Origin: Begonia masoniana
Lineage: Eukaryota; Streptophyta; Magnoliopsida; Cucurbitales; Begoniaceae
DNA: 64,000 nucleotides
Direction: 5' to 3'
NCBI GenBank assembly: GCA_022432975.1
Contig: CM039509.1
Location: 26,562,510 to 26,626,509 of the forward strand
Position 1 is the stretch's first letter, and the number at the start of each line of letters is the position of its first letter. The notes under the pieces were generated by a model, which saw only the letters and a program-made list of their open reading frames with translations, did no database searches and was not told the DNA's origin. A program made the position numbers and the translations under genes. Below are positions 1 to 63,719 of the stretch, piece after piece.

Positions 1-479
1 TACATTCTACTTATATCTTCCGATAGCTTCCACCGAAGACATCTTCCGATAGACAACAGAACAACAACCCACCATCTGCCAATAGACATCGTCTTTCAAC
101 AGAGAACAGAGCAACATTTCAACTACTCCTTGCTATACAAACACAACTCTGACTACGAAAAGTAATTTACTCACTTCACTGTAACAATTCAGAAACAATT
201 CAAAACATTACATTACTCAAGATCCAGTAAGAACCAACATTAAAACTCAACAAAATACTATTTTCAGAAAGATCTCAAAGGCGTATTCAAAACATGGAAA
301 CCACTACTATCATGAAATCTCAACACGCTTAAATTGAAACATTGTCAACTAAACCTTCACACCAACAGACATCAGTTAAACTGCCTCATCAAGATACCAA
401 AATGTGGCATGAATGTGCTTCAACAGCTTCGCCTATTCCTTAGTAAATTCAAAGAACTCTCCAGTTGTTACCGCAACAC

Positions 480-964
480 CTACATCACAAAACTCATCTA
501 TTAGCCTAATGCTAAGCAAGTAAAGCAATAATGAAATGATATGCTGAAACATAAAACCTAAACATGCAGTTTCTACTTTCTCATCTCAGTTGTACATTCG
601 TTAGGTTTACTGATCTGATCCCTCGGTTCCCTTGGGAGTGGGATCAATTCTCCCAATGTTATACATCCTCTACTCGATTAAGGGGCGGATGAATTCCCTT
701 AATAGCTATTCTGATCCCTCAGTTCCCTTGGGAGTGGGATCAGTTCTCCCAATGTTATACATCCTCTACTCGATTAAGGGGCGGATGAATTCCCTTAATA
801 GCTATTACATTTCAATCTGTACTTGCCTTTCCGTGCCACTACATATAAATTGATTTTCATATTTTTTCAAAAACATGATGTATAACACGCAGAAAATACT
901 TAAGCATGCATAAACCTACTGTTTTGTGATGTAGGCCCAAAGGCACACACAATACTTCACTTAC
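480..964 (-). other. Predicted LTR leader intron in H
   Basis: On the minus strand the donor is CCAA|GTAAGT at 964 (the usual -1 G is A here) and the acceptor is GATGTAG at 480. CTACATCACAAAAC (934 down to 921) can pair with GTTTTGTGATGTAG (493 down to 480), giving 14 Watson-Crick pairs that include the acceptor itself. A GCC-TTTG-GGC hairpin lies just upstream of the donor-side strand. Splicing is inferred, not shown. Confidence 0.5.
615..806. repeat. Two 96-bp tandem units in LTR H
   Basis: Two near-identical copies (615-710 and 711-806) both start CTGATCCCTC and end AATAGCTATT. They lie inside the predicted intron of H and resemble the paired 'CCAACTCC' blocks of the B LTR. Confidence 0.85.
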
Positions 965-1789
965 TTGGATTCTTAGGGAAATGTTTGGTTGCTAACCAGT
1001 TCGGGTTCTGCTCAAACCTAAAACCATAGACAGTGTATTAGTTAAACTTCATTCTAAACTATCCAGGAGTATAAGGAAATTAGTTTGGAAGCTCAGATCT
1101 TCGTGCATTCCCGATTCTGCACTTAACCTGAAACTACACTCATTCGCAACACTCCCAAAACACATACATTGCACTCCCTTTGTTATCTAACCGTCTAGTC
1201 ATAAGGGAAAATGAAGAAACTAACCTAAGTCGGAGAAATCGCTGGATAAATCGAAGGGAGGGCCTCCTAGAGTACTCTGCTAAGCTGAGGAGATGAGAGT
1301 CGAAAAGAATTGGAAAATAGTGGCGTCTACCATGCATTAAATCCAAAAACTATACGTTATCCATTTTAAATTTCCAATGACCCTTACGCCCTTGCCTAGT
1401 CATCCATTAACCCCACTTTTACTATTGTCATTAAAGTGTGTCATTAATTTAGAAAGAAATAAGACTTGGTTCTATAGAATCGGGTGTTACAGATTGTAAC
1501 ACCCGAGAATTGTTCCGCTAACGTGCATAGCATTAGATTGATCCTAGGGTTATGGTGTGTTGGAGTTTGGTGTTTTAACTTTGACTAAATGAAAGATTTG
1601 AAGGAAAAGTAAAGTGAAGTGAAGTGGTAGGTGTGGGTTAATTAAATTATTCTTGGGAGTTTTGATGGAGGAGTTAGACCGAGGGTGAGGTGAAGGGCAA
1701 TTTATACAAATTTAACGGAGTTTCGGAGGGGTCGAATTTATGGAAGGGCAAAAAGGTAAATGCTATTTTATTAATGTTTTAATAGGAAA

Positions 1790-1813
1790 TATTATTATTA
1801 TTATTATTATTAA
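1790..1813. repeat. (ATT)n microsatellite
   Basis: Uninterrupted ATT repeats inside LTR I. The related D LTR carries an (AAT)n run at the equivalent place (about 38397-38426) on the other strand, so the microsatellite is an ancestral part of this LTR family. Confidence 0.9.
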
Positions 1814-2720
1814 TAAAAACAACATAATGGCTTCGACAAGCCATTCTGTTGTTTGAGCGGCGACGACCCGAACGGAGACGAGGGGGAGGGCAACGTTCGG
1901 TGACCTGTTCACCGGCGTTTTCCAGCATTCTTTGGCCAGACGACGGCGGCGAGCTGATTCCAGCCATCTTCGCACACAAACCGACGGGTAAGCTCGATTT
2001 TGCCCTGTTTTAGGTTCGGTTTGAGGCCGTGAGTGACGAGCCAGATTTGGTTCCGATCACCGGCTGATTTTGGTTGCTTCTGGCGTGGGTTTGCCGACCC
2101 TTGGACTGGCTATAGTCGCCTGGCCGTGAGGAGCCCTATTTGGGCAAAATTCAGCAAGCCCAATTTGGGCGTTTCGATTTTGCTGAGTGAAGCCTCAGGA
2201 TTTTTAGTTAGGTTATGCTAATTGAGGATAAATGCTGTTGATTGGTGAAGAAACGAGTGAGAATTGATGGAACACCGAAAAAGGAAAAATTTCCGGTTTA
2301 GGGCAGATTTGGGTTTTGCTATTTTTGAAATAGCTACAGCCGTTTTTTTTTTAAATTTCCTTTTGGCAGGTAAAACTAGGTTATTAGAGGAGTACGTGGC
2401 CGTTAGAATCGTTCGATTTTGATAACTGACGCAAAAGTTACGCGCGTTTGAAGTTTCGGGTTGGTTTTTACCGAACCCAATTTAGTGGCCCGTTTAGTTA
2501 GGTTTTAGTTGGCTTAGGCTAGAAATGGTAGTTTGAGAGTAAATTGGTGAATGTAAGCTTGATTTTAATGAAGTTTGAATATTTATCGTAGGTCGAGCCG
2601 TAGGTGGATAGGGAACCGAGTATCCTCAGCGAGCTAGAATGCCAGGTAAGTAGAGGAATCTTTTCGTTGCCTTCGGGCCTACACCATAGAACGGAAGGGT
2701 TTAATGGTTGGTTGTTTTGT

Positions 2721-2793
2721 TTCGTGTTGTGTTGTGTTGTTTTTTTCGTGTTGTGTTGTGTTGTGTGGTGTGGTTGTGTTTCGTGTTGTGTTG
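2721..2793. repeat. (GTGTT)n-type microsatellite
   Basis: Degenerate GTGTT/GTTGT repeats inside LTR I. Open frames here (2604-2889) read as Cys/Val/Phe-rich low-complexity peptides and are not taken as genes. Confidence 0.85.
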
Positions 2794-2911
2794 CATACCT
2801 TTGACACATGTATCATGAGTTACAGTGCGCTAGATACGAGTGGTTGCATTGTTTGGTATTGTGAGGGTGAACATAATCAAATAGAGTAAATTGAGAAATG
2901 TATCTTTAATA

Positions 2912-3089
2912 GTGTGCCTTGTCGGGATTACGTGCTAGAGTGTAGCACCCCGGAGGGACCTCTATGAAAGATGACCGGCTAAAATATGAAATCTTGATTA
3001 GTGCGCCTTGTCGGGATTACGTGCTGGAGTGTAGCACCCCGAGGGGATCTCTATGAAGGATGATTGGCTAAAATACGTAAATGTCGTGA
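2912..3089. repeat. Two-copy 89-bp direct repeat in LTR I
   Basis: GTGYGCCTTGTCGGGATTAC begins each copy (2912 and 3001). The copies are about 90% alike and are followed by three shorter repeats carrying 'CCTAGACGGTTATGGGAT' (3095-3240). Confidence 0.75.
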
Positions 3090-3981
3090 GTATGAATTCT
3101 TAGACGGTTATAGGATTCTACGATCGACGAGGGAGATTATGTATGGCCATCCTAGACGGTTATGGGATGAGTGCTATCTTGTCTTGCTCTGATGGTTCTG
3201 AGTGTGGCCGTCCTAGATAGTTATAGGATGTGTGCCTACTCGATCCACACCGGCTTATGAAATGATTAAAGCAACAAACAACAAACGAACACAACTGAGA
3301 GTTAGAAACTACATGTGATAGGATTGAGTTGCATTGTGTGTGTGCGCATTCGTTTTCCCTACTTACTAAGCATTAGGCTTACGTTTTGTGTTCTATGGTG
3401 TAGGTGACGAAGTATATACAGGTGAGGTTGAGTGCGAGGACCAGGACTAGATATAGTCGTTGATGCACAAGGCACGCCGGTGCAAGCAGTTGTTGGGGCG
3501 CCTCGACCAGGATCTTCGGAGGTGTGTTTGGTTCGGTACTTTGGGATTTTGTATAGTTTTCTATCTATTCTGGATGTTTGAAGGGTTTGACTATTTTGTT
3601 GGTTCGATTTTGTAAATGTGGTGGTGAATTGTTTTGAAATCTCTTTGAACGTGCTTTATGAACATTTGGGTTTTCTTGGATTTTAGTTATTTTGTAGGTT
3701 TGAAGTATTGATCGTTCGGTTGGGTTTGATTTGGTAAGTGTGAATTGAGAACTGGTTTAGGATTTCTCTGAACGTGTTTATACATGTTTGATTTTTTTTT
3801 TAGGATTTGGTTTTAGTAATTTCAGTCGTTACGCTGTCCCTTTTTTTTTATAACAAGCAACATCGGGTTCATTTGTTTTCACGTTTTTACTAATATTTTT
3901 AGAGTCGAGATTTTAACAAAAATTATTTTAAATTATGTTTTAAACGCGGGATTGGTTAGCAAAGTAGCGCTCTGCCTTTTT

Positions 3982-4205
3982 TGTAACGACCCACCAGGCT
4001 CCCTCGATGGGCCGTGCAGTCCGGCTCACTAGCCAACCGACATTGCCACGTGGTTTCCCTTAGGCCGTCCTACATGTACTCACGATCTTCCCCCACCACC
4101 TGGTAAATGGGGGTTTTTGCCTTCCCTGGGATTAGAACCCTGGCCCCAAGTCTACATAATCAAGGGTTCACCATCCCAGGTATCACTTGAGCTAGCTAGC
4201 TTGAC
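3982..4205 (-). mobile_element. tRNA-derived SINE-like segment
   Basis: On the minus strand TAGCTCAAGTGATACC (4194-4179) resembles a pol III A box and GGGTTCTAATCCC (4140-4128) a B box, about 40 nt apart as in tRNA-derived promoters. The segment continues to TTACAAAAAAGG at its low end, which could be a short A tail. It could instead be an LTR part with chance tRNA similarity. Confidence 0.45.
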
Positions 4206-14186: not shown

Positions 14187-15381
14187 TGTAACGCCCCCGA
14201 ACCCACCCTGGCTCGGTGCGCTACTTGCTAACCAATCCCACATTAAAACATAATTTAAAATAAAATTGACACAGCAGAATTTAAAGCTAAGTCCCTCAAA
14301 ACTCTCTTACGTCATACCTAGCTGCCTAGACTCATTAATTTCCCTTAATTCTAACCGTTAAATACCACGGCGTCTTCCTTAAAATTTTTGACAAAGTAAC
14401 ATCTCAAAATGGCGCCTCCAAAATGCTAAATACCTGCACAAAAGCCAATCCCAACCAATCCAAAATACTCCTACTCAACTTATTCAGCATACGAAATCAC
14501 CAATTAGCAGTAAAAAGGGAAACTAAACTACTAACATCCCTAAATGAAGAAAGTCCATAGTATAGGGCGACACATTACCCTTAACTATGACTATATACAA
14601 CAAATACAAATAGCTATACCATAACTGTAAAAACATTAACCAAAAAGAGTCACACATTCCCCCCATTTTCACAAAAAGACATCTACAATAAACTACCAAA
14701 ATGCAAAGTCCCACATTCTCCCGAAGACCAAGGTCGAGGCGCCCAGACAACTGCCCGCACCGGTGTGCCCCGTGTGCCACCGACTACCGCCTAATCCTGG
14801 CTCCCTCGTCTAGCTCACTAGTAACCCGTCACCACCTACACCACAGAACACACACGTACACGTAAGCTTACGCTTAGCAAGTAATGTAACGACCCCGGCC
14901 AGGAGCCGTCACGTGTTCATAATCTTTCATTAATCGTTTGCTTGACTTTTACTTTTACATTCACATACTACATATTATATTATATTATTTGATTTATTTT
15001 CTTTCCTAAACTGGAAACAGAGACGTAGAACCATCAAGGAAGACGAACCCTCTCGTGTTCGACCTTCTACGCCTCGTCGGCTCAAACTTTCACAGAGTCG
15101 AGCGACTAGACTCGGTCATCGGTTTCTTGACAAATTCGGGCAAAGGAGAAATGCCCTCAACTCTCTTAACATAATTCTACTCGGGTTTGCATGGGTTGCA
15201 TGTGTTGGCAACCCTCAGAAATTTCATCGTCCGGTCATCACGTGCATTACGCGTGTCTCGCTTAACACCGCCTAAAAGGAGACATCTTCCGGTGGGCACG
15301 TGGGCCTCGCGTGCTCAATTAAAAGCATCATCCGGTGACATCCACCGGTCACTAAACAACAAGATAACATTTACAACTTCT

Positions 15382-16620
15382 ACCGGTGACGTCATCCGGA
15401 AGACTAAACCATCAATCTACTAACATTCGGCATCTGCCGATGACGTCAGCCGGAAGACTAAACCATCCAACTACAATCCGTCGGCATCTCTCTGCGATGA
15501 CGTCAGCCGGAAGGCACTAAACCATCCAACTACTATCCTTCGGCATCTGCCGATGACGTCAGCGGAAGACTAAACCATTCCAACTACAATCCTTCGGCAT
15601 CTGCCGATGACGTCAGCCGGAGGACTAAACCATCAATCTACTAACATTCGGCATCTGCCGATGACGTCAGCCGGAAGACTAACCATCCAACTACAATCCT
15701 TCGGCATCTGCCGATGACGTCAGCCGAAGACTAAACCATCCAACTACAATCCTTCGGCATCTGCCGATGACGTCAGCCGGAAGACTAAACCATCCAACTA
15801 CAATCCTTCGGCATCTGCCGATGACGTCAGCCGAAGACTAAACCATCCAACTACTATCCTTCGGCATCTGCCGATGACGTCAGCCGGAAGACTAAACCAT
15901 CCAACTACAATCCTTCGGCATCTGCCGATGACGTCAGCCGGAAGACTAAACCATCCAACTACAATCCTTCGGCATCTGCCGATGACGTCAGCCGGAAGAC
16001 TAAACCATCCAACTACAATCCTTCGGCATCTGCCGATGACGTCAGCCGAAGACTAAACCATCCAACTACAATCCTTCGGCATCTGCCGATGACGTCAGCC
16101 GGAAGACTAAACCATCAATCTACTAACATTCGGCATCTGCCGATGACGTCAGCCGGAAGACTAACCATCCAACTACAATCCTTCGGCATCTGCCGATGAC
16201 GTCAGCCGGAAGACTAAACCATCCAACTACAATCCTTCGGCATCTGCCGATGACGTCAGCCGGAAGACTAAACCATCCAACTACAATCCTTCGGCATCTG
16301 CCGATGACGTCAGCCGGAAGACTAAACCATCCAACTACTATCCTTCGGCATCTGCCGATGACGTCAGCCGGAAGACTAAACCATCAATCTACTAACATTC
16401 GGCATCTGCCGATGACGTCAGCCGGAAGACTAAACCATCAATCTACTAACATTCGGCATCTGCCGATGACGTCAGCCGGAAGACTAAACCATCCAACTAC
16501 AATCCTTCGGCATCTGCCGATGACGTCAGCCGAAGACTAAACCATCCAACTACAATCCTTCGGCATCTGCCGATGACGTCAGCCGGAAGACTAAACCATC
16601 CAACTACAATCCTTCGGCAT
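15382..16620. repeat. 54-bp minisatellite with TGACGTCA in each unit, 22 copies
   Basis: Each unit holds GGCATCTGCCGATGACGTCA followed by GCCGGAAGACTAAACCATC. I count 22 array copies of the 8-bp palindrome TGACGTCA, plus one in the preceding CCGGTGACGTCATCC. Two unit subtypes alternate (CCAACTACAATCC and CAATCTACTAACA). TGACGTCA is the core bound by plant bZIP (TGA/C-box) factors. The matching right LTR has only four. Confidence 0.95.
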
Positions 16621-17243
16621 CTACCATAAGGTTTCAACTAAGCCTAATGCTTAGTAAGGAATGCATACTGACAACTATACATGAGTGCACAAATTAAGGA
16701 ACACAAGTTCATAAACCTTTCTTCATTCATGTTCATTTTCATTATCTTCATGGCATGTATTAAGGCAGGAGACGAGGGAGGAAGGCAGGGGTACATAGTC
16801 ATTTGCCTATCGCGGCAATCATAATACATCACTCGGCCTCCCCCAGCGGGAGAATTCGCGAGCTGTACATATCATCAACTCGGCCTCGCCAGTGGGAGAA
16901 TCCGCGAGTCATACATATCATTAACTCGGCCTCCCCCAGTGGGAGATTCGCGAGTCATACTTATCATAGTCTTTTCCCCGTTCTGCACTTAATCATAGTT
17001 ACATATGTTTTTCATGTTCTCAACTTAAACATAACGTAGACACAGTGCATAGACATAAAGTTCATAGAGAGAAGTCATATCATAAGGACAAGCAAAACAT
17101 CCCGTAACTTAAAATCTTCTTACACCAATTCTTCATATCATAGTAATGACTAATCATAATCAACAGACTAACATCTCAATGATTTCCTAATACCCTTGCG
17201 GTGTAGGGCCCTAGTGGCCGGAAATCTTAATACATTCACTTAC
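16621..17243 (-). other. Predicted leader intron of the A 3' LTR (altered acceptor)
   Basis: Donor ATCCAG|GTAAGT at 17243. The deletion in this LTR fused the acceptor to the array, leaving GGTAG|ATGCCG at 16621. Confidence 0.4.
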
Positions 17244-21408: not shown

Positions 21409-21929
21409 GTAAATGTAACACCCGGTTTATTAGAATTAAAATAACCAATTAATCTTCTAAGTGTGAATTTTATAGAATGAAATAGGGAGAAATAGCAATT
21501 ACGTTAATGAGTAACTAAGTGAGGGCATAAGGGTAATTGTCAATTTATATTGTGGATAACGTATTTAAGGAAAGAGTAAATGAGGTATAGCCGTCAATGC
21601 TCATTTCACTCTCGATTTTTCAGCTCAACCCAGTAGAGCTCTCCAGACGATTTCCCTTCCCGATATCCTTCAACTTAGGTAAGTTCTTTAGTTTTCTTCA
21701 TGTATTGATGAATAGATAACCAAATTAGGACAATGTGAGTATTTTGGAAAAGTTGAGAGAAATAGCGGTTCGGGTTTGGAGTTTATTCGGGAATGCTCTA
21801 TGAGTAGTGTTCCCAAACTAACTCCTTAGATTTCTGAATAGCTTAGATTAAGGTTTAACATTCTGTTTATGAATATAGGTGAACAAACCCCCGAAGTAGC
21901 TCTTAACCGAGCATTTGCTAGGAATCCAG

Positions 21930-22439
21930 GTAAGTAAAGTTTGCTTGTGCCTTCGGGCCTACATCACAGAACATTAGGATTTTTGTGTGTTTGAATATTT
22001 TCCTGTTTCATGCATCATATATTTGAAAATATACGAAAATGAGTTTACATGTTTTGATATAGTGAGGAAGTGAACATTCTGAAGTGATTTATGTGAAACA
22101 TTTTCTGTTAAGGGAACTAATCCAACCCTTAATGAGCCAGGGATCATACTTTGGGAAAACTGATCCAACTCCCAATTTCGAAGTGGATCTGAACATTGAT
22201 CAGTATATATATATTCACTGTTAGGAGAATTAATCCAACTCCTAATGAGACAGGGATGTTCATACTTTGGGAGAAGTGATTCAACTCCCAATTTAGAGAG
22301 GAATCCGATTATAACGATGAATATGTAACAGAGATGAGAAAAGTAGAAACTGCATGCTAGGATGACATGTCTTCAGCTTTTCATGCATTATTGCTTTACT
22401 TGCTTAGCATTAGGCTAATAGATGAGTTTTGTGATGTAG
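21930..22439 (+). other. Predicted leader intron of the B 5' LTR
   Basis: Donor ATCCAG|GTAAGT at 21930 and acceptor GATGTAG|GTGAAGAAG ending 22439, 510 bp. Hairpin GCC-TTCG-GGC at 21949-21958. CTACATCACAGAAC (21959-21972) pairs with GTTTTGTGATGTAG (22426-22439): 14 pairs, one G-U. TTGCTTAGCATTAGGCT lies about 40 nt before the acceptor. Confidence 0.55.
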
Positions 22440-22861
22440 GTGAAGAAGTTTTAGCAGGTGTGTTTACTGAGTTCACAGAAGGCTAGTTGGGTTGGAGGAG
22501 TGCATCCACACAATGTTCTGGCAGCTGATGGGGCAGTTTAATTGATGTCTGTGGAGTGAAGGTTTTATTATCAATGCTTTATTTTAGATGGATCGAGTTT
22601 TCATAACAGTAGTGATTTCAGCGTTTTGGACAAATTGAGTTTTACTTTCTGATGTTGGTATTTTTTTTGGAAATTGAAATTTATTATTTGATGGATGTAG
22701 AGTGATGCATTGGTCTGATTTGTTTATAAAGCGATTTCAGTAGAGCAAACAGGTTCTCTTCTTAGATGGGGTCGTATAGGTATAGTTAAGAGTATTCGGA
22801 ATGTCGCTCTGTTTCTATCGGTAGGTGATGCCTATCGGCAGGTATTGAGTTGTGGTTTGGT

Positions 22862-23111
22862 GTCTATCGGAAGATGAAAGTCTATCGGTAGATGCGGTGT
22901 GTAAGTCTATCGGAAGATGAAAGTCTGTCGGTAGATGCGGTGTGTAAGTCTATCGGAAGATGAAAGTCTATCGGTAGATGCGGTGTGTAAGTCTATCGGA
23001 AGATGAAAGTCTATCGGTAGATGCGGTGTGTAAGTCTATCGGAAGATGAAAGTCTGTCGGTAGATGCGGTGTGTAAGTCTATCGGAAGATGAAAGTCTAC
23101 CGGTAGATGTC
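22862..23111. repeat. 43-bp repeat, six units, in the B 5' LTR
   Basis: Each unit holds two half-repeats, GTCTATCGGAAGATGAAA and GTCTATCGGTAGATGCGG. The units differ mainly at TAT/TGT in the second half. Confidence 0.92.
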
Positions 23112-23646
23112 TTATGGAGTCACGCGTGAAGCACGTGTCGGCAGATGTAGTCTAATTGATCGGAAGATGTAGTGTGTATTTTAATTCTATCGGAAAGAGT
23201 TGTATTGGCATTATCGGCGGAGGGTGTTGCGTTGTTTGTACACGTCATCGGTAGATGAAGTCTACCGAGTGATGTCTTTTGTTTTCCTTCCTTCCGGCTG
23301 ACGTCATCGGCAGGAGTCTTCGGTTTTCTATTCCTGCTTCTTCCGTTGACTTAGTCGTCGGCAGATGCGTTGTCTTCTGAAACCGAAAGAGTATTTCGTG
23401 CCTTAAACCCTCATTCCTTTCGGCTGAATATTTCTTAACATTCCCAATGACTATTTTAATAATGTTTTTCACAGTTTTGTTTAACTTCATTGTTGTTCAA
23501 AAAGAATTTCCGCGGCAAGTTTTAAATATTTTGAGAAGTCTAATCTTGACTGTCGAGTGAAGCTTTGAATTTATTATCAAAATTTCTTAGTCATGATAAT
23601 GTTATGGGTAGCGAACCGGGTTCAGATAACTCGGGGCGTTACAGTA

Positions 23647-23659: not shown

Positions 23660-23797
23660 ATTCAGTTAAACTGTTCAAAAGATTACTCATCAGTGCCGAT
23701 CGTTGCATGGAAGCACTCCAACAACTGTAAGTGTTTAAGTTAATATTATTATTAGATATTTATGTGAATAATTCATCTGGTCTAGGAATATAGTGAA

Positions 23798-24220
23798 ATG
23801 TCTAGACGACCAGGAAGACCAAGAATACCAAGAGAGACACCAAATCCGTGGAATGAGGAAGACTCTAGTGTGATTAGGCAGCTGACTGAGCTGATGCGCC
23901 AGCAGACAGACATTGTGCGTCAGCAGTCCGATCAGCTAGGTGTGTTGTTGAGTCGGGAAGCACATGGGAGTGCTAACTCTGGTTCTAACAGTGAGAATTC
24001 TGGAGATAGGTTCCGGAGACTAAGACCACCCACGTTTGATGGTCAGTCAACTGATCCAGTTATTGCTGAAGGATGGCTTAGGAAGATAGAGAGCATGTTC
24101 AGGTGTGCCAACATTGGAGAGGGAGACAAGGTCACATTGGCAACATTTCATCTGGCTGGAGATGCTCAACTTTGGTGGGAAACTATTGAGACCGCCACTG
24201 ATGTTTTGGCGATGCCTTAG
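23798..24220 (+). CDS. gag: Element B gag, N-terminal part, ended by TAG
   Basis: Starts MSRRPGRPRIPRETP, then a coiled segment (IRQLTELMRQQTDIVRQQSD) and the capsid start FRRLRPPTFDG, IAEGWLRKIESMFRCANI, LAGDAQLWWETI. It stops at TAG (24218-24220), codon 141, right after LAMP, where relatives have Trp. The same frame continues without a shift, so one substitution truncates the whole polyprotein. The start is the first ATG after the primer site, about 140 nt downstream. Confidence 0.92.
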   Translation: MSRRPGRPRIPRETPNPWNEEDSSVIRQLTELMRQQTDIVRQQSDQLGVLLSREAHGSANSGSNSENSGDRFRRLRPPTFDGQSTDPVIAEGWLRKIESMFRCANIGEGDKVTLATFHLAGDAQLWWETIETATDVLAMP

Positions 24221-27998: not shown

Positions 27999-28706
27999 CT
28001 ACACCATACAGACACATATGAGATATTGAAATCTCAGTAAGCTACGTAAATGCAACTACATGCTATGCTATGCGTGTGAGTTCAGAAATCATGCATCGTT
28101 TTCTTTACTTTACTTTACTTTGCTTTACTTTGCTGTGCTATGAAGGTGTCACCGAGATCTCAGCCCAATAACCGGGGAGAGCACGTCCAGCGGGCGGACC
28201 ACTCTTTCCGGTTAATGGAGGGGGTTACACGCTTACAACACGTACAGCCGTGCCTGAGCCCCATCTCGCGTGACCTATGAACTGTATACCGAAGGGTCAC
28301 ATGAACTATATACCGATGGGTCATTTGAACTATATACCGATGGGTCATTTGAACTATATACCGAAGGGTCATTTGAACTATATACCGAAGGGTCATTTGA
28401 ACTATATACCGAAGGGTCATTTGAACTATATACCGAAGGGTCATCTTTACTTTGCATTTACTTTAAAACATTGTGCGGAAATTCATTTTCTATGCGTGCT
28501 TTAAAATCGTGATGCATGAACAGTTCATATAAGCAGAATTTAAACAAACAACATGCATACATTCAAGACAGTTAAGCAGAACCTATAAACAACTAACCTA
28601 ACTACCCAACCAGAATAACGTAAAATAAACAGTTCCTCGAGTATTCTCGAGACGACGACGGAGTATGGTGCAGACCTTTGGGTCAAAGTAAGTCACGAAA
28701 ACTTAC
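27999..28706 (-). other. Predicted leader intron of LTR C
   Basis: Minus-strand donor CGACAG|GTAAGT at 28706 and acceptor GGTGTAG|GTGACC at 27999, 708 bp. Hairpin GACC-CAAA-GGTC. CTGCACCATAC can pair with GTATGGTGTAG with one G-U. Confidence 0.5.
28270..28444. repeat. 24-bp tandem array, about seven units, in LTR C
   Basis: Units of TTTGAACTATATACCGAAGG type. Because 24 is a multiple of three, all frames stay open on both strands; the open frames at 28160-28512 are array artefacts. Confidence 0.93.
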
Positions 28707-31178: not shown

Positions 31179-31695
31179 TTGTAACACCCGGTTTATTAGA
31201 ATTAAAATAACCAATTAATCTTCTAAGTGTGAATTTTATAGAATGAAATAGGGAGAAATAGCAATTACGTTAATGAGTAACTAAGTGAGGGCATAAGGGT
31301 AATTGTCAATTTATATTGTGGATAACGTATTTAAGGAAAGAGTAAATGAGGTATAGCCGTCAATGCTCATTTCACTCTCGATTTTTCAGCTCAACCCAGT
31401 AGAGCTCTCCAGACGATTTCCCTTCCCGATATCCTTCAACTTAGGTAAGTTCTTTAGTTTTCTTCATGTATTGATGAATAGATAACCAAATTAGGACAAT
31501 GTGAGTATTTTGGAAAAGTTGAGAGAAATAGCGGTTCGGGTTTGGAGTTTATTCGGGAATGCTCTATGAGTAGTGTTCCCAAACTAACTCCTTAGATTTC
31601 TGAATAGCTTAGATTAAGGTTTAACATTCTGTTTATGAATATAGGTGAACAAACCCCCGAAGTAGCTCTTAACCGAGCATTTGCTAGGAATCCAG

Positions 31696-32205
31696 GTAAG
31701 TAAAGTTTGCTTGTGCCTTCGGGCCTACATCACAGAACATTAGGATTTTTGTGTGTTTGAATATTTTCCTGTTTCATGCATCATATATTTGAAAATATAC
31801 GAAAATGAGTTTACATGTTTTGATATAGTGAGGAAGTGAACATTCTGAAGTGATTTATGTGAAACATTTTCTGTTAAGGGAACTAATCCAACCCTTAATG
31901 AGCCAGGGATCATACTTTGGGAAAACTGATCCAACTCCCAATTTCGAAGTGGATCTGAACATTGATCAGTATATATATATTCACTGTTAGGAGAATTAAT
32001 CCAACTCCTAATGAGACAGGGATGTTCATACTTTGGGAGAAGTGATTCAACTCCCAATTTAGAGAGGAATCCGATTATAACGATGAATATGTAACAGAGA
32101 TGAGAAAAGTAGAAACTGCATGCTAGGATGACATGTCTTCAGCTTTTCATGCATTATTGCTTTACTTGCTTAGCATTAGGCTAATAGATGAGTTTTGTGA
32201 TGTAG
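31696..32205 (+). other. Predicted leader intron of the B 3' LTR
   Basis: Identical module to 21930-22439, offset by 9766 bases. Confidence 0.5.
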
Positions 32206-32627
32206 GTGAAGAAGTTTTAGCAGGTGTGTTTACTGAGTTCACAGAAGGCTAGTTGGGTTGGAGGAGTGCATCCACACAATGTTCTGGCAGCTGATGGGGC
32301 AGTTTAATTGATGTCTGTGGAGTGAAGGTTTTATTATCAATGCTTTATTTTAGATGGATCGAGTTTTCATAACAGTAGTGATTTCAGCGTTTTGGACAAA
32401 TTGAGTTTTACTTTCTGATGTTGGTATTTTTTTGGAAATTTGAAATTTATTATTTGATGGATGTAGAGTGATGCATTGGTCTGATTTGTTTATAAAGCGA
32501 TTTCAGTAGAGCAAACAGGTTCTCTTCTTAGATGGGGTCGTATAGGTATAGTTAAGAGTATTCAGAATGTCGCTCTGTTTCTATCGGTAGGTGATGCCTA
32601 TCGGCAGGTATTGAGTTGTGGTTTGGT

Positions 32628-32877
32628 GTCTATCGGAAGATGAAAGTCTATCGGTAGATGCGGTGTGTAAGTCTATCGGAAGATGAAAGTCTGTCGGTAG
32701 ATGCGGTGTGTAAGTCTATCGGAAGATGAAAGTCTATCGGTAGATGCGGTGTGTAAGTCTATCGGAAGATGAAAGTCTATCGGTAGATGCGGTGTGTAAG
32801 TCTATCGGAAGATGAAAGTCTGTCGGTAGATGCGGTGTGTAAGTCTATCGGAAGATGAAAGTCTACCGGTAGATGTC
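32628..32877. repeat. 43-bp repeat, six units, in the B 3' LTR
   Basis: Same unit order and number as 22862-23111, so no copy-number change since insertion. Confidence 0.92.
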
Positions 32878-33409
32878 TTATGGAGTCACGCGTGAAGCAC
32901 GTGTCGGCAGATGTAGTCTAATTGATCGGAAGATGTAGTGTGTATTTTAATTCTATCGGAAAGAGTTGTATTGGCATTATCGGCGGAGGGTGTTGCGTTG
33001 TTTGTACACGTCATCGGTAGATGAAGTCTACCGAGTGATGTCTTTTGTTTTCCTTCCTTCCGGCTGACGTCATCGGCAGGAGTCTTCGGTTTTCTATTCC
33101 TGCTTCTTCCGTTGACTTAGTCGTCGGCAGATGCGTTGTCTTCTGAAACCGAAAGAGTATTTCGTGCCTTAAACCCTCATTCCTTTCGGCTGAATATTTC
33201 TTAACATTCCCAATGACTATTTTAATAATGTTTTTCACAGTTTTGTTTAACTTCATTGTTGTTCAAAAAGAATTTCCGCTGCAAGTTTTAAATATTTTGA
33301 GAAGTCTAATCTTGACTGTCGAGTGAAGCTTTGAATTTATTATCAAAATTTCTTAGTCATGATAATGTTATGGGTAGCGAACCGGGTTCAGATAACTCGG
33401 GGCGTTACA

Positions 33410-34459
33410 GTAAACTCTGGGTATTACTCTTGCACGGTTCGGGTCTGGCGGCATGGGGCAGTCTCTGACTAAGTATCCGGTCTTATCACACCTGAAACAA
33501 CGGCCAGAAAGCAACTTGCACTCACCAGGGTGGTTCTTCTGACATGCAGGGCATAGAGGTGCCAGAGGTCTCTTTCCTTTTCCCTGGTCATCGTTCTGGT
33601 TGAGGGGCCTCTTTATTCCATGCTGTTGTTGCTGTGGTCCCCTGTTCTGACGCGGCTGCCAACCCTTGTTCTGACGTGGTGGCGGCTGAGTGTCCTTCAT
33701 GAGTTTCTTTGGCTGTTCGCGCAGTGCATATGCTGTCATTTCTGCCTCCTCCAGCTCCAAGGCCTTGGCCGTCACTTCACCATAAGGTACATTATGTATC
33801 CCAGCAGTCTTCACTTTCATGTACAAACTTGGTTTCAGTCCTTGAACAAACTGATAAATCTTGTCTTCCTCATCCTCTATCATACGGGGAGCAAACCGTG
33901 ATAAGGCATCAAATTCGCATATGTAATCCGTCACAGAGCCAGTTTGACGAAGATTCATGAACTCCTTCTTCTTGTTGGCCCGAACAGTCCTATTGAAGTA
34001 CTTGTCAAAGAAGGCAGTCTTGAACATTCCCCAGGTCATAGCTTCGGCATTAGCGGTGTTCTGGATTGAGTCCCACCAATGCCTTGCACTTAACTCCAAA
34101 TGAAAGACAGCATAGGTGACCTTATTCCCTTCGTCAACCTTTGCATACTTAAACATGTCTTCTATCTTTCGAATCCACTCCTCAGCATGAATAGGATCGG
34201 AAACATACCCATTAAACACCGGGGGTCGAAGCCGGTGAAAGCGTTCACCCCCATGATCATGAGTTGCGTTAGTACTGGAGTTGCCTTGTTCTTCTCTAGC
34301 TATCATCAGTCGTTCTATCTGGTGAGATTGGCGCATGACTAACTCAGTCAATTGAGCAATAGCAATGCTATCCTCATTGGTCTCCCTCTGTTGACCTCTA
34401 ACCATCTCGGGATTCCTAGACAAATCATTACAGGCATAACTTAACTTAATGACATACAT
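33410..34459 (-). CDS. gag: Element A gag (truncated at its 3' side by element B)
   Basis: Forms the particle and binds RNA. The likely start is ATG at 34405 (MVRGQQRETNED); an upstream ATG at 34459 is in frame. After a coiled N-terminus (AIAQLTELVMRQSHQIERLM) comes the capsid block (FHRLRPPVFNG, WIRKIEDMFKYAKV, ELSARHWWDSI, FFDKYFNRTVRANKKKEF, FMNLRQTGSVTDYICEF), a Pro/Gln-rich stretch, and a zinc knuckle region CPACQKNHPGEC plus CFRCDKTGYLVRDC. In the second knuckle the zinc-binding His is Tyr, while the Q copy keeps CFRCDKVGHIVRDC. The frame reaches RVIPRVY and then runs into LTR B. Intact otherwise. Confidence 0.93.
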
Positions 34460-35732: not shown

Positions 35733-36360
35733 CTACACCATAAGGTTCAACTATAAGCCTAATGCTTAGTAAGGAATGCATACTGACAAATATACATGAG
35801 TGCACAAATTAAGGAACACAAGTTCATAAACCTTTCTTCATTCATGTTCATTTTCATTATCTTCATGGCATGTATTAAGGCAGGAGACGAGGGAGGAAGG
35901 CAGGGGTACATAGTCATTTGCCTATCGCGGCAATCATAATACATCACTCGGCCTCCCCCAGCGGGAGAATTCGCGAGCTGTACATATCATCAACTCGGCC
36001 TCCGCCAGTGGGAGAATCCGCGAGTCATACATATCATTAACTCGGCCTCCCCCAGTGGGAGATTTCGCGAGTCATACTTATCATAGTCTTTTCCCCGTTC
36101 TGCACTTAATCATAGTTACATATGTTTTTCATGTTCTCAACTTAAACATAACGTAGACACAGTGCATAGACATAAAGTTCATAGAGAGAAGTCATATCAT
36201 AAGGACAAGCAAAACATCCCGTAACTTAAAATCTTCTTACACCAATTCTTCATATCATAGTAATGACTAATCATAATCAACAGACTAACATCTCAATGAT
36301 TTCCTAATACCCTTGCGGTGTAGGGCCCTAGTGGCCAGAAATCTTAATACATTCACTTAC
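35733..36360 (-). other. Predicted leader intron of the A 5' LTR
   Basis: Minus-strand donor ATCCAG|GTAAGT at 36360 and acceptor GGTGTAG|GTGAAGAAGG at 35733, 628 bp, lying downstream of the TATA box. Hairpin GGCC-ACTAG-GGCC. CCTACACCGCAAGG can pair with CCTTATGGTGTAGG (13 of 14). CCTTACTAAGCATTAGGC lies about 30 nt before the acceptor. Confidence 0.55.
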
Positions 36361-36896: not shown

Positions 36897-37172
36897 CTCA
36901 ATCCATCAATTTTAATTACAAAACTGCCACCCAACCTAGTTTTACTCAACTTGTAATAAATTTGTCTTAACATTAAATTTAAATCATACAGGTTAAATAA
37001 GAGGGGGTGACAATGAAAATGGTAAGAAAATCACCTGGCCGAAATGTCGGGTGTTACAAGTAATGAATAACGAATATAAACATTCACAATGCACCCACAA
37101 TGTAAACATGCACCATGCACCCAACATCCCCTAACACATGCCTAGTCCACTCACTCTGCTGCTTCTTACTAA

Positions 37173-37857
37173 TGCACGTTAACGACGAGGCGTTCCACCC
37201 TCTAGTGCCACTTGCACTTTAACAACGAGGCGTTCAACCCTCTAGTGCGACTTGCATTTTAACATCGAGGCGTTCAACCCTCTAGTGCGACTTGCACTTT
37301 AACATCGAGGCGTTCAACCCTGTAGTGCCACTTGCACTTTAACATCGAGGCGTTCAACCCTCTAGTGCCACTTGCACTTTAACATCGAGGCGTTCAACCC
37401 TCTAGTACGACTTGCACTTTAACATCGAGGCGTTCAACCCTCTAGTGCCACTTACACTTTAACATCGAGGCGTTCAACCCTCTAGTGCCACTTGCACTTT
37501 AACATCGAGGCGTTCAACCCTCTAGTGCGACTTGCACTTTAACATCGAGGCGTTCAACCCTCTAGTGCGACTTGCACTTTAACATCGAGGCGTTCAACCC
37601 TCTAGTGCCACTTGCACTTTAACATCGAGGCGTTCAACCCTCTAGTGCGACTTTCACTTTAACATTGAGGCGTTCAACCCTCTAGTGCCACTTGCACTTT
37701 AACATCGAGGCGTTCAACCCTCTAGTACGACTTGCACTTTAACATCGAGGCGTTCAACCCTCTAGTGCCACTTACACTTTAACATCGAGGCGTTCAACCC
37801 TCTAGTGCCACTAGCACTTTAGCATCGAGGCGTTCAACCCTCTAGTGCGACTTGCAA
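37173..37857. repeat. 40-bp minisatellite, about 17 copies, in LTR D
   Basis: Units carry ACTTTAACATCGAGGCGTTC and then CAACCCTCTAGTGC. Copies differ mainly at one C/G base (GTGCCA or GTGCGA) and rare substitutions. The array lies within the predicted intron. It is not a CRISPR array because there are no unique spacers. Confidence 0.95.
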
Positions 37858-38396
37858 CACATTTCATGCTCATCATTCACATCATACCCCAACACACTAC
37901 ACATCTCATGCTCATCATTCATATCATACCCCAACACACTACACATTTCATGCTCATCATTCACATCATGCCCCAACACTTATTTCGTAGCTTAACATGA
38001 CGCATGCCACTCACACAATACTCAAACACCAAACAACAACAAAAACCCAGCAATGCAGGCACACACTACTCAATATAAACAACACAACTATCAAACAATA
38101 AATCCTACCGTTCCGTGGTGTAGGCCCGAAGGCGACAAAACACACAATCTATTACTTACCTGGCGTCCTAGCTCGCTGGGTTTGGCACATCACGTCACCT
38201 ATGGCTCGACCCATCGGATTTGTGAGCGGAGACGGCCGAAATCTGCTCACCGCAGTCGTCTGGCCGGAGAACGCCAGAAAACATCGCCGAACAGGTCGCC
38301 GTCGAATGTTGCTCATCTCCCTCGTCTCCGTTCGGGTGCTCGGGTTTTCGGTGCTCGCGACAGAATGGCTTCGAGCCATTCTGTTATTTTCTTTTA

Positions 38397-41850: not shown

Positions 41851-44800
41851 TGTAACGACCCGAGAAGGATCGCCACGAAATCATAATCTTTTATTAATCG
41901 TTTACTTGACTTTTACTATTATTTCATCTTTCCTATTTCTCGACAAGCATTTACATTCGCATATCCTCCTTTTTTTTTTTACTAAACTGAAAACAGAGAC
42001 ACAGAACCATCAAGGAAGATGAACCCTCTCGTGACTCGACTTCCTACACCTCGTCGGCTCAAACTTTCACAGAGTCGAGCGACTAAGCTCAGTCAATTAA
42101 TCCGTAACTTAATCGGACAAGGAAGAGATACCCCAGACCACTTGAGGTTATACGATTCGGATTTGCATGGGTTTGCATGTATCAACCCTCAGAAATTACA
42201 TCGTCCGGTCATCACGTGCAATACGCGTGACTCGCTTAACATCGCCTAATAGAAGATATCTTCCGGTGGGCACGTGGGTTTCACGTGTCTAATTAAAACA
42301 TCGCCCAGTGGTGGACATCCACCGGCGAACACGAGCCAAACACGTGACTCATTAAAATCACGCCCGGTCACTAAACGACAAAATAGCATTTACATCATCC
42401 GGTGAAGGAATACGCTTAATCCACCGGTCACTAAACGACAAAATAGCATTTACATCATCCGGTGAAGGAATACGCTTAATCCACCGGTCACTAAACGACA
42501 AAATAGCATTTACATCATCCGGTGAAGGAATACACTTAATCCACCGGTCACTAAACGACAAAATAGCACTTACATCATCCGGTGAAGGAATACACTTAAT
42601 CCACCGGTCACTAAACGACAAAATAGCATTTACATCATCCGGTGAAGGAATACGCTTAATCCACCGGTCACTAAACGACAAAATAGCATTTACATCATCC
42701 GGTGAAGGAATACGCTTAATCCACCGGTCACTAAACGACAAAATAGCATTTACATCATCCGGTGAAGGAATACACTTAATCCACCGGTCACTAAACGACA
42801 AAATAGCATTTACATCATCCGGTGAAGGAATACGCTTAATCCACCGGTCACTAAACGACAAAATAGCATTTACATCATCCGGTGAAGGAATACGCTTAAT
42901 CCACCGGTCACTAAACGACAAAATAGCATTTACATCATCCGGTGAAGGAATACGCTTAATCCACCGGTCACTAAACGACAAAATAGCATTTACATCATCC
43001 GGTGAAGGAATACGCTTAATCCACCGGTCACTAAACGACAAAATAGCATTTACATCATCCGGTGAAGGAATACACTTAATCCACCGGTCACTAAACGACA
43101 AAATAGCATTTACATCATCCGGTGAAGGAATACGCTTAATCCACCGGTCACTAAACGACAAAATAGCATTTACATCATCCGGTGAAGGAATACGCTTAAT
43201 CCACCGGTCACTAAACGACAAAATAGCATTTACATCATCCGGTGAAGGAATACGCTTAATCCACCGGTCACTAAACGACAAAATAGCATTTACATCATCC
43301 GGTGAAGGAATACGCTTAATCCACCGGTCACTAAACGACAAAATAGCATTTACATCATCCGGTGAAGGAATACGCTTAATCCACCGGTCACTAAACGACA
43401 AAATAGCATTTACATCATCCGGTGAAGGAATACGCTTAATCCACCGGTCACTAAACGACAAAATAGCATTTACATCATCCGTGAAGGAATACGCTTAATC
43501 CACCGGTCACTAAACGACAAAATAGCATTTACATCATCCGGTGAAGGAATACGCTTAATCCACCGGTCACTAAACGACAAAATAGCATTTACATCATCCG
43601 GTGAAGGAATACGCTTAATCCACCGGTCACTAAACGACAAAATAGCATTTACATCATCCGGTGAAGGAATACGCTTAATCCACCGGTCACTAAACGACAA
43701 AATAGCATTTACATCATCCGGTGAAGGAATACGCTTAATCCACCGGTCACTAAACGACAAAATAGCATTTACATCATCCGGTGAAGGAATACACTTAATC
43801 CACCGGTCACTAAACGACAAAATAGCATTTACATCATCCGGTGAAGGAATACGCTTAATCCACCGGTCACTAAACGACAAAATAGCATTTACATCATCCG
43901 GTGAAGGAATACGCTTAATCCACCGGTCACTAAACGACAAAATAGCATTTACATCATCCGGTGAAGGAATACGCTTAATCCACCGGTCACTAAACGACAA
44001 AATAGCATTTACATCATCCGGTGAAGGAATACGCTTAATCCACCGGTCACCAATGGGAGATTCGCGAGCCATTCATGAGCCTTGTGAACATATCATAGTC
44101 ATTTCCCCGTTCTGCATTAATCATGATTACATTTGTTCTTCATGTTCTTAACTCAATCATAAACGTGTACATAATGCATAGACATGAAGTTCACAGAGGA
44201 ATATCGTACTGTATGAACGAGTAAAACATCATGTAACTTAACATCTTCCTGCTCAAATACTTCATATCATGGCAACTATTAGTCATAATCATCAGACAAA
44301 CATTTCAACAATTTTTCCTAGTACCCTTGCGGTGTAGGGCCCTATTGGCCGGAAATCTTAATACATCCATTTACCTGGTCTCCTTAGCAGTTGAGCTCTT
44401 TTCTCTTCAAACTTCTTCACCTAAGACAATCACATTACAGTAGTTAAAATAAAATCCTAAAAGTTCTAACCACAGTCATCCTAGGTTCTAGTAACTAAAG
44501 CCATTCCCGAGTCTAACAGTCCAACACTCAGTGTGCAGTCCGAAATCCAAGGTCGAAACAGCTAGATGCAACTAAGACTAATCCGGGTTTGGTTACTCTA
44601 AATACTCAGAATCGATTCAGAACGACATTAACAAATCTCGGGTCTCAAAATGTCCATAACAATACACGGTCATTGAAGAATCTAGAACTTCAATACAGAG
44701 CTGAAAAACAAAACTAATGATCTAACGGATAGCCACATTGTCTAATACATACGTCGGGCACAGAGTAGTCGAGTGGTGGCGGAGTGAACCGGCCGTCGAG

Positions 44801-48793: not shown

Positions 48794-49357
48794 CTACATC
48801 ATAAGGTTTAAACTATAAGCTTAATGCTTAGTAAGGAGTGCATTGCTAACATGTATGTATGAATGTACGAATTTAAGGAAAACACAAGTTCATGATCTTT
48901 TCGTGTTCTTATTCTTGTTCATGTTCATTGTTTTCATCATATGGATTAAGGGAGGATTTGTCCCGAAAAGGGGGTTGACAGTGAGAGTGTACATAGTCCC
49001 TTGCGGGTCGTATTCATGGTCCTTCTTTTGGACAGTGACATATGCCAAACCGCCCCCAACCCTCTCTTAATCCTTGTTGCATAAGTTTCATGTTCATATC
49101 TTGTTCATGGGAGAAATCATGCACTTAAAACATTTTTATATGCTTGAGAAATATTCATGATGCATGAGCATGAGTAAATCTTAGTTCATCAGACTACTGA
49201 ACAAGCCATTCATTCATCAAAGGATCATAACATCAACTCGAGTATCTTACCCAAACAGACAATAGCACAGATAACCTTTAAACATCATAGACAACTTCTA
49301 CCTAGTACCCTTGCGATGCAGGGCCTTAATGGCCAAAAATCTTACTCACTCACTTAC
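48794..49357 (-). other. Predicted leader intron of LTR L
   Basis: Minus-strand donor AACCAG|GTAAGT at 49357 and acceptor GATGTAG|GTGAAG at 48794, 564 bp. Hairpin GGCC-ATTAA-GGCC. CCTGCATCGCAAGG pairs with CCTTATGATGTAGG, the CATC:GATG pairs replacing the CACC:GGTG of A. Confidence 0.55.
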
Positions 49358-53638: not shown

Positions 53639-53850
53639 GAGACCCTCCCGAGGTGCTCCATGAGCACTACTCCCCGGCGAGGCAGCTCTATTCGATATTG
53701 CAGTTCAATCTCATAAAGACCCTCCCGAGGTGCTCCACGAGCACTACTCCCCGACGAGGCAGCTCTATTCGATATCATCACAACACAACACTTGTAGAGA
53801 CCCTCCCGAGGTGCTCCACGAGCACTACTCCCCGGTGAAGCAACTCTACA
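53639..53850. repeat. Three ~80-bp units in LTR O
   Basis: Each holds GAGACCCTCCCGAGGTGCTC and GAGCACTACTCCCCGG. Together they open frames on both strands that are not genes. Confidence 0.85.
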
Positions 53851-53893
53851 CCCTATCACTACCTAGTGCAATGCATCCTTGCGGAACCCTCAT

Positions 53894-55391: not shown

Positions 55392-55570
55392 CGAAGGAAT
55401 ACGCTTCATCCACCGAACGCTAGACGACACAATACCATTTACATCATCCGGCGAAGGAATACGCTTCATCCACTTAACGATAGACGACAAAATACCATTT
55501 ACATCATCCGGTGAAGGAATACGCTCCATCCACCGAACGCTAGACGACAAAATACCATTCACATCATCCG
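55392..55570. repeat. 60-bp repeat, three units, in LTR P
   Basis: Units hold CATCATCCGGCGAAGGAATA and CCACCGAACGCTAGACGAC, the same 60-bp repeat as in LTR K but more diverged. The array breaks into the 36-bp repeat of LTR O at 55391. Confidence 0.88.
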
Positions 55571-56066: not shown

Positions 56067-56803
56067 CTACATCATAAGATTTAAACTATAAGCCTAATGC
56101 TTAGTAAGGAATGCAACACTAACATGGATGCATGAATGTATAATTTGGGAAAATCACATGCTCATAAGTCTTTTCTTGTTCATATCTTTACTCGTAATCA
56201 TCATTCAAAGTCATAGATCATTTTCATCAATCATAGTCATTGATCATATTCATCATTCGTAGTTATTGATCATATTCATCATTCATAGTCATTGATCATG
56301 TTCATCATTCATAGTCTTTGATCATATTCTTCATTTAGGTTGTGTGGATTAAGAGAGGATTTGTGCCGGTAAAGGGGGTTCGACAGTGAGTTTGATCTTG
56401 TTCCCTACTGCGGGTCGTATTCATGTCCCTCTTTGGACTGTGACATACGCCGAACCGCCCCCAACCCTCACTTAATCCACGTTGCATAAATCTTATATAT
56501 ACATATATACATACATATCCTGTTCATGGAAAAATGCATTAAAACATTTTCTTATGCTTGAGAAACATTCATGATGCATGAACATGAGAACTTTTAACCC
56601 ATCAGACTATGACAAGGATCATACAAGAGCAGACAGCTTCACATTCACTAGTAGATCATCAAATAGTATAACTCACAACATTCATCAATCATTCAAGTGC
56701 AGACAAGCTCATTATCATAAGGTAAACATTAGACATCTAAAACAACCTAGTACTCCCACGATGTAGGGCTCTATTAGCCGGAAATCTTAATACATTCACT
56801 TAC
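56067..56803 (-). other. Predicted leader intron of LTR P
   Basis: Donor GACCAG|GTAAGT at 56803 and acceptor GATGTAG|GTGACG at 56067, 737 bp on the minus strand. Hairpin GGCT-AATAG-AGCC, a C:G to T:A compensatory change against A. CCTACATC pairs with GATGTAGG. Confidence 0.55.
56208..56335. repeat. CATAGTCATTGATCATATTC repeats in LTR P
   Basis: Five imperfect ~26-bp units within the predicted intron; the matching array in the right LTR is at 63120-63246. Confidence 0.88.
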
Positions 56804-62980: not shown

Positions 62981-63719
62981 CTACATCATAAGATTTAAAC
63001 TATAAGCCTAATGATTAGTAAGGAATGCAACACTAACATGGATGCATGAATGTATAATTTGGGAAAATCACATGCTCATAAGTCTTTTCTTGTTCATATC
63101 TTTACTCGTAATCATCATTCAGAGTCATAGATCATTTTCATCAATCATAGTCATTGATCATATTCATCATTCGTAGTCATTGATCATATTCATCAGTCAT
63201 AGTCATTGATCATGTTCATCATTCATAGTCTTTGATCATATTCTTCATTTAGGTTGTGTGGATTAAGAGAGGATTTGTTCCGGTAAAGGGGGTTCGACAG
63301 TGAGTTTGATCTTGTTCCCTACTGCGGGTCATATTCATATGTCCCTCTTTGGACTGTGACATAAGCCGAACCGCCCCAACCCTCACTTAATCCACGTTGC
63401 ATAAATCTTATATATACATATATACATACATATCCTGTTCATGGAAAACATGCATTAAAACATTTTCTTATGCTTGAGAAACATTCATGATGCATGAACA
63501 TGAGAACTTTTAACCCATCAGACTATGACAAGGATCATACCAGAGCAGACAGCTTCACATTCACTAGTAGATCATCAAATAGTATAACTCACAACATTCA
63601 TCAATCATTCAAGTGCAGACAAGCTCATTATCATAAGGTAAACATTAGACATCTAAAACAACCTAGTACTCCCACGATGTAGGGCTCTATTAGCCGGAAA
63701 TCTTAATACATTCACTTAC
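62981..63719 (-). other. Predicted leader intron of the Q 5' LTR
   Basis: Donor GACCAG|GTAAGT at 63719 and acceptor GATGTAG|ATGATG at 62981, 739 bp on the minus strand. Hairpin GGCT-AATAG-AGCC and CCTACATC/GATGTAGG pairing as in P. Confidence 0.5.
63120..63246. repeat. CATAGTCATTGATCATATTC repeats in the Q 5' LTR
   Basis: Counterpart of 56208-56335, with the same number of units. Confidence 0.85.

Follow-up and report, generated by a model that had tools for sequence, protein, structure and literature searches.

Known systems with related architecture

Among plant retrotransposons with long terminal repeats (LTRs), BARE, EVADE and Ogre produce both spliced and unspliced RNAs (PMC3735527, PMC12786077), and in BARE separate RNA pools serve translation and copying (PMC3735527). 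Foamy viruses carry a splice donor inside the LTR, with RNA structure at that donor (PMC3694450). Long-range helices within introns are also known from cellular genes: the zipper stems of yeast (RPS17B) and downstream stems have strands at fixed distances from splice signals (PMC12350175), and human conserved complementary regions form conserved long-range intronic pairs near splice sites that are obstructive over a site (PMC8052449). Here we describe a predicted helix in an intron of the LTR leader of Ty3/gypsy elements in a stretch of 64,000 nt from Begonia masoniana (contig CM039509.1, positions 26,562,510 to 26,626,509, forward strand; hereafter the window).

The Begonia LTR helix differs from the yeast zipper in joining the donor side to the acceptor AG itself, with the branch motif enclosed in the loop (PMC12350175). 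Human pairs are depleted at active splice sites, whereas the LTR helix covers a site that has been used (PMC8052449). Unlike in foamy viruses, the acceptor also lies in the LTR, so that each of the two LTRs has a complete copy of the intron (PMC3694450). The introns of BARE and EVADE are in the coding part, not the LTR, and no covarying helix is mentioned in the available portions of those accounts (PMC3735527, PMC12786077). In the literature searched, whose coverage excluded most subscription papers, nothing was found that describes an intron contained entirely in a plant LTR. The Ogre intron, too, is reportedly placed in the coding part.

A predicted helix joins the donor side of LTR intron 2 to its acceptor

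The LTR leader at the reported locus has three exons and two introns, the second of which carries the helix. Its parts are as follows (window positions, plus strand, read from the sequence unless other evidence is named).

1495..1505, +: LTR start TGTAACACCCG, 1,151 nt upstream of the intron-2 donor
1988..2591, +: intron 1 of the leader, GTAAGC ... TCGTAG, 604 nt; exons joined exactly here in the minus-strand copy with donor 38159
2592..2645, +: exon 2, 54 nt, ending in CCAG before the donor
2646..3403, +: intron 2, helix-bridged, donor GTAAGT from 2646; the equivalent intron is precisely absent in copies L074 and L075
2669..2678, +: hairpin GCC-UUCG-GGC, adjoining the 5' arm
2679..2692, +: 5' arm CTACACCATAGAAC
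3362..3370, +: branch-site-like CTTACTAAG
3390..3403, +: 3' arm GTTCTATGGTGTAG, ending in the acceptor AG
3404..3450, +: first part of exon 3, whose frame looks coding (G|GT GAC GAA ... TAG)

The arms at 2679-2692 and 3390-3403 pair at 14/14 positions, and the last base of the hairpin directly precedes the first base of the arm. The coordinates given for helix and hairpin in the first-pass annotation of this stretch were right, and the observation holds more strongly than was claimed there; our use of its family letters (A to Q) is limited to sequences that its text spells out.

For the statistics, 78 donors from the window and from fetched genome loci were paired with acceptors, and for 18 further donors no acceptor was found. 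Acceptors were located by the branch motif and TGTAGGTGA, not by arm complementarity. Two introns, window-46757 (acceptor deleted) and window-23438 (inserted element), were dropped before all statistics, leaving 76 copies; L033+5199, with a doubtful acceptor, was also left out of the 55-tip and 17-copy tests and the exon-3 spacing count below. Geometry was re-scanned in 77 introns, from which window-46757 and window-23438 were not removed by name, with the search limited to branch motifs and acceptors about 20-75 nt apart. Across these introns the donor-to-arm distance was 29-37 nt and the branch motif lay 39-42 nt from the AG in 73/77, while the 76 copies had arm-to-AG distances of 366-858 nt. 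A stem adjoining the arm was present in 77/77 introns against 37% in shuffles, most of the loci having been fetched by hairpin motifs. The window count is therefore the one relied on: when no hairpin was required, a stem of at least three pairs was found at 13 of the 15 donor-plus-arm sites in the window, and the two sites lacking it had other spacings (17 and 46 nt).

The motif is abundant in the 795 Mb of genome scanned, in which the window sits on contig C8. GCCTTCGGGCCTACAYCAY had 16,732 matches and its reversed control none; the donor with the UUCG hairpin had 12,702, the GATT-hairpin form 9,217, the A form 2,171 and one C form 10. These figures are motif matches to the forms named, of which only the fetched ones were read; GGCCCTTAAGGCCCTACATC and GGCTAATAGAGCCCTACATC are two further hairpin families.

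The two arms covary beyond shared ancestry

The tree was inferred from the flanks alone; along it each column evolved independently, keeping that column's number of changes. Covariation between the arms summed to 1.779, compared with a null mean of 0.383 and a maximum of 1.108 in 400 simulations. With close copies collapsed to 55 tips it was 1.638 (null mean 0.329, maximum 1.045, p 0.0007, 1,500 simulations), so that the observed value lay above every simulation under independent evolution. Total pairing also exceeded the null (55 tips, p 0.001), the observed value being reached in 1/1,500 simulations. Covariation peaked on the diagonal, with most of the signal at arm positions 6, 9 and 11. 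These are the three double changes between the I and H types from which a selected structure had originally been argued, and each is significant on the tree (p 0.0025, 0.0075 and 0.0025 in 400 simulations; 0.0007, 0.0067 and 0.0007 with 55 tips). Positions 12 and 13 were weak in covariation, and positions 1-5 and 7 are nearly invariant and hence uninformative.

Tests of pairing agreed. In the 76 copies, 946/1,064 arm positions were paired, compared with 858 (sd 7.9) when the 3' arms were redealt. Of 132 positions, 104 paired in register, against 39-67 when the arms were shifted by 1-3 bases. With the five arm-finding bases excluded, the acceptor was the best partner of positions 6-13 within its own intron in 63/76 copies, and in the top 1% in 70; the best-partner count was 52 for positions 6-11 and 37 for positions 6-14. 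Copy L018 has a matched one-base shortening on both arms, CACAAAC / GTTTGTG in place of CACAAAAC / GTTTTGTG.

Most loci had been fetched by patterns that took in the hairpin plus the initial 7-9 bases of the 5' arm; position 11 is absent from every fetch pattern. Sampling bias was checked in 17 copies found without an arm or hairpin pattern, either in the window or as other-type copies in fetched 10-kb stretches, with one copy taken per LTR pair. In this set 207/238 positions were paired, against 191.1 (sd 3.4) on redealing (p 0.00005), covariation was 1.485 (null mean 0.373, maximum 1.375, p 0.0007), and positions 6 and 11 held individually (p 0.003 and 0.005). A selected RNA structure linking the donor side to the 3' splice site is supported by the covariation, best-partner and bias-check tests; at the level of sequence, both the complementarity and its covariation are established.

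Splicing and intron loss

Intron 2 has spliceosomal features, namely GT-AG ends and a branch-site-like motif. The exact spliced junction GGAATCCAG|GTGAAGAAG occurs at only two places in the genome, on the same strand and 6,085 bp apart, in a count restricted to this one junction sequence. Two LTR-like copies without introns were identified, and they indicate exact excision from RNA indirectly.

G000 C9:42277560-42278360 and 42283640-42284440: L074 and L075, intron-less LTR-like copies, both leader introns precisely missing

Identity between them is 98.5% over 796 bp, which is what the LTRs of one element would show, and they form a putative pair. Both run from exon 1 (..CTTCAACTTAG) to exon 2 (GTGAGCATTTCC..) to exon 3 with neither intron left. 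Since L011, which still carries introns, has an almost identical exon 2, the loss appears to have gone through spliced RNA. The introns are judged real, and the acceptor in the helix to be the site used, because both introns are missing exactly at the predicted sites in these two copies; the donor and acceptor named in the first-pass annotation are thereby supported as genuine splice sites. An alternative acceptor at a downstream CAG|GTGAGG was ruled out, as the intron-less copies join at TAG|GTGA.

Intron 1 can also be lost singly: in the minus-strand window copy with donor 38159 (38159-38337) it is precisely missing and intron 2 is kept. A count of intron-1 losses by the pattern CTTCAACYTAGGTGARC (255 places) was discarded, as the pattern also fits a GTGARC-type donor; in 6/6 places matched by eye to listed donors, the intron-2 donor lay 266-267 nt on and intron 1 was present.

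Under the standard model of retroelement replication, an intron in R/U5 is lost whenever spliced RNA is reverse transcribed. Intron 2 persists in thousands of LTRs, and the RNA that was copied was therefore unspliced. Set against the two spliced junctions, the intact intron-2 donor motif has 5,606 matches; judged from the copies, reverse transcription of spliced RNA is possible but rare, and copied RNA nearly always keeps intron 2.

Proposed function and alternatives

We propose, as a reading about evenly balanced between right and wrong, that the helix cages its own acceptor and so keeps a share of the RNA unspliced to serve as genome. The hairpin and the strand about 30 nt past the donor would pair with the last ~11-14 nt of intron 2, acceptor AG included. 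Should the helix form in cells, it would cage the acceptor, and the caged share would stay unspliced as the genome copied by reverse transcriptase; the opened, spliced share would be the mRNA. Splicing would remove the caging strand, because that strand is part of the intron. In human genes, long-range pairing that covers a splice site is in general obstructive (PMC8052449). The first-pass annotation had offered three functions, bridging of the splice sites, masking of the acceptor, and dimerization or packaging. The data do not tell these apart, but the position of the arm over the AG and past the branch motif, together with the rarity of intron-less copies, favours masking or a tagging of unspliced RNA over simple bridging.

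A helix that promotes splicing by shortening the distance from the donor to the branch point and acceptor in a long intron, as the yeast zipper stem does (PMC12350175), is unlikely here. The arms do lie at both ends of the intron, at fixed distances from the donor and the branch motif. However, such stems belong between the donor and the branch point, whereas the 3' strand here is past the branch motif and covers the AG, which a bridging helix has no need to include.

We consider it equally improbable that the hairpin and helix, being present only in RNA that retains intron 2, serve as a packaging or dimerization signal. Retroviruses place packaging signals 3' of the major donor, and such a tag would be expected to show the same conservation as a mask. 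The hairpin, found at all window donor-plus-arm sites but the two oddly spaced ones, and the intron-2 donor, kept in nearly all copies counted, both fit a tag. Copies without the intron were nevertheless made and integrated, a UUCG loop is a poor kissing loop, and a tag leaves unexplained why the helix ends exactly at the AG.

Maintenance at the DNA level, with an inverted repeat kept by template-switch correction between the arms or by shared ancestry and having no RNA function, is very improbable. Correction of near-palindromes exists and might in principle produce a compensatory change, the arms are short, and their core CCTACAYC/GRTGTAGG hardly varies. Yet the tree-aware null was exceeded in all three tests, and the pairing is anchored at a functional splice site. 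Single changes from a Watson-Crick pair gave 19 G.U, 10 A.C and 21 transversion mismatches; the excess of G.U over A.C intermediates leans against palindrome correction, suggestively rather than decisively. Least credible of all is a role chiefly in controlling polyadenylation in the 5' LTR or access of U1, on the model of foamy viruses, where the choice of poly(A) site depends on U1 at the LTR donor and on the RNA structure found there (PMC3694450), for the donor itself lies outside the helix.

Several observations weigh against a selected helix that cages the acceptor, or limit the case for it. Pairing alone gives no direction, and a helix could lower or raise splicing. Double changes broke pairing five times and kept it four times, a balance that also speaks for DNA-level maintenance. 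Redealing was weaker when the copies were reduced to 11 crude clusters (125/154 against 118.5, p 0.02), the fetch patterns under-sampled 5' variants at the positions they contain and may inflate the scores at positions 6 and 9, and position 9 alone reached only p 0.06 in the 17-copy set. Two mismatches are fixed in the A-type copies (11, in one cluster), C.A at position 9 and G.A at position 14, and the GATT and C types pair only up to about position 11-12; the first-pass annotation mentions neither point. Among 16 full introns, 10-11/11 helix pairs appear in the predicted minimum-energy fold of ten, which counts in favour of the helix, though one of these has a pair probability of only 0.21. 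The helix is absent from that fold in the other six: two A copies, window -14643, window -35294 (pair probability 0.45), L019+4895 and L020-781. The fold was more stable than all eight arm-shuffled controls in only 6/16 introns. The existence of intron-less copies means that helix-bearing RNA is not strictly required for reverse transcription. Finally, the contrast between 5,606 genome matches to the intact intron-2 donor motif GGAATCCAGGTAAGT and two spliced junctions compares exact motifs of unequal strictness and is no gauge of splicing. The structure can thus be regarded as firm in three types, H, I and GATT; in A it is doubtful, given the mismatches and fold results of the A copies.

Exon 3 has a coding-like frame

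The frame G|GT after the acceptor runs for 15 codons to a stop in 16/19 H and 13/15 I copies and for 12-22 codons in 26/26 C copies, with scattered lengths in eight other copies. Differences between same-length copies at codon positions 1/2/3 were 251/301/421 in H (77 pairs), 86/71/160 in I (34 pairs) and 88/80/168 in C (40 pairs). The distance to the next AG|GTG was a multiple of three in 66/67 copies, and eight more lacked such a motif. With its acidic peptide, conserved stop, third-position excess and in-frame indels, exon 3 looks coding-like.

No conserved start codon was found upstream of exon 3, and exon 1 has no conserved ATG in the H copies inspected. A small spliced open reading frame across all three exons was rejected as an established fact, on the grounds of that missing ATG and of exon 2, where differences are not concentrated at third positions (counts at positions 1/2/3: H 79/74/70, I 39/49/30, A 55/77/48, C 263/140/229). 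An in-frame TAG at the exon 1/2 junction of the intron-less LTR, seen by eye, also counts against it.

Other copies in the window

The window holds nine complete copies of intron 2 and a tenth split by a nested element. Those other than the reported locus are listed below.

21930..22439, +: intron 2, first LTR of element 21414-23646/31180-33412; arms 21959-21972 and 22426-22439
31696..32205, +: intron 2, second LTR of the same element; arms 31725-31738 and 32192-32205
480..964, -: intron 2, LTR truncated where the window begins, T-type helix; arms 934-921 and 493-480, 14/14 pairs
62981..63719, -: intron 2, hairpin GGCT-AATAG-AGCC; arms 63682-63669 and 62994-62981
56067..56803, -: intron 2, other LTR of the element holding the 62981..63719 copy; from sequence
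35733..36360, -: intron 2, A-type LTR, hairpin GGCC-ACTAG-GGCC; two fixed mismatches, helix outside the predicted fold
48794..49357, -: intron 2, copy with CTGCATC / GATGTAG; helix outside the predicted fold
27999..28706, -: intron 2, hairpin GACC-CAAA-GGTC; arms 28673-28660 and 28012-27999, helix probability 0.45, outside the minimum-energy fold
38110..38123, -: 5' arm of the copy that a nested element splits; lacks intron 1, which measures 604 nt in the copy at 2645
14836..14849, -: 3' arm of the split copy (5' arm 38110..38123); 14/14 pairs, one G.U

The T-type pair CTACATCACAAAAC / GTTTTGTGATGTAG is that of the minus-strand copy with intron 964-480. One copy has an insertion in its 5' arm (40529-39636, minus strand); CTACACC flanks it on either side, and its ends are roughly complementary to each other (GAGGTGAGCAAAAACCGATC ... 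GATCCGATTTTTGCTCACCCC).

Elements of the window and searches elsewhere

The window is plant DNA crowded with nested Ty3/gypsy elements with long LTRs. Pfam matches in its proteins include Ty3-type gag, protease, reverse transcriptase, RNase H and integrase, and six window proteins gave no chromodomain match at E 0.001. Among the 120 integrase relatives listed, of 8,000 scored, those named were mostly from flowering plants, and five carried the chromodomain PF00385. Two plant-like integrases, P0036 and P0057, are filed as Rhizobium and Corynebacterium, and probably reflect plant contamination of bacterial assemblies. The elements are chromovirus-like Ty3/gypsy elements with leader introns inside their LTRs, possibly of the Tekay clade.

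By eye, the LTR start TGTAACACCC follows a purine-rich tract (the polypurine tract), and a tRNA-Met-like primer site TGGTATCAGAG stands 3' of the 5' LTR, with the start of gag about 150 nt further on. The LTRs at 21414-23646 and 31180-33412, which belong to one element, are 99.8% identical, and donor 21930 lies inside the first of them, which places the major splice donor within the LTR. Between primer site and gag, a donor-like CAACT|GTAAGT and an acceptor-like AATATAG were also seen by eye at 23720-23800. Long tandem arrays occur near or inside LTRs at 42222-44200 (60-nt units), 53776-55456 (36), 37053-37992 (40) and 15310-16665 (54).

A search of window positions 1-4200 with the Rfam 15 covariance models, at E up to 1, gave no match. 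Motif patterns run against viral contigs returned five chance matches, none with a matching acceptor arm, and a further pattern returned none. In other genome contigs there were two matches, titled bacterial, without arms or acceptor, and a pol search for relatives outside the genome found none.

Implications for plant retroelements

On a tentative reading, to which we give somewhat less than even weight, this is a self-caging intron wholly within an LTR: a strand of each transcript would lock that transcript's own 3' splice site and set the split between genome RNA and mRNA, and selection would have kept the lock in cis as a number of diverged LTR families spread, their motif copies in one plant genome running to tens of thousands. 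How plant retroelements divide their RNA between an unspliced copying template and mRNA is little understood. The answer may be a short covarying helix, one that is testable and of which a single genome offers tens of thousands of natural motif copies.
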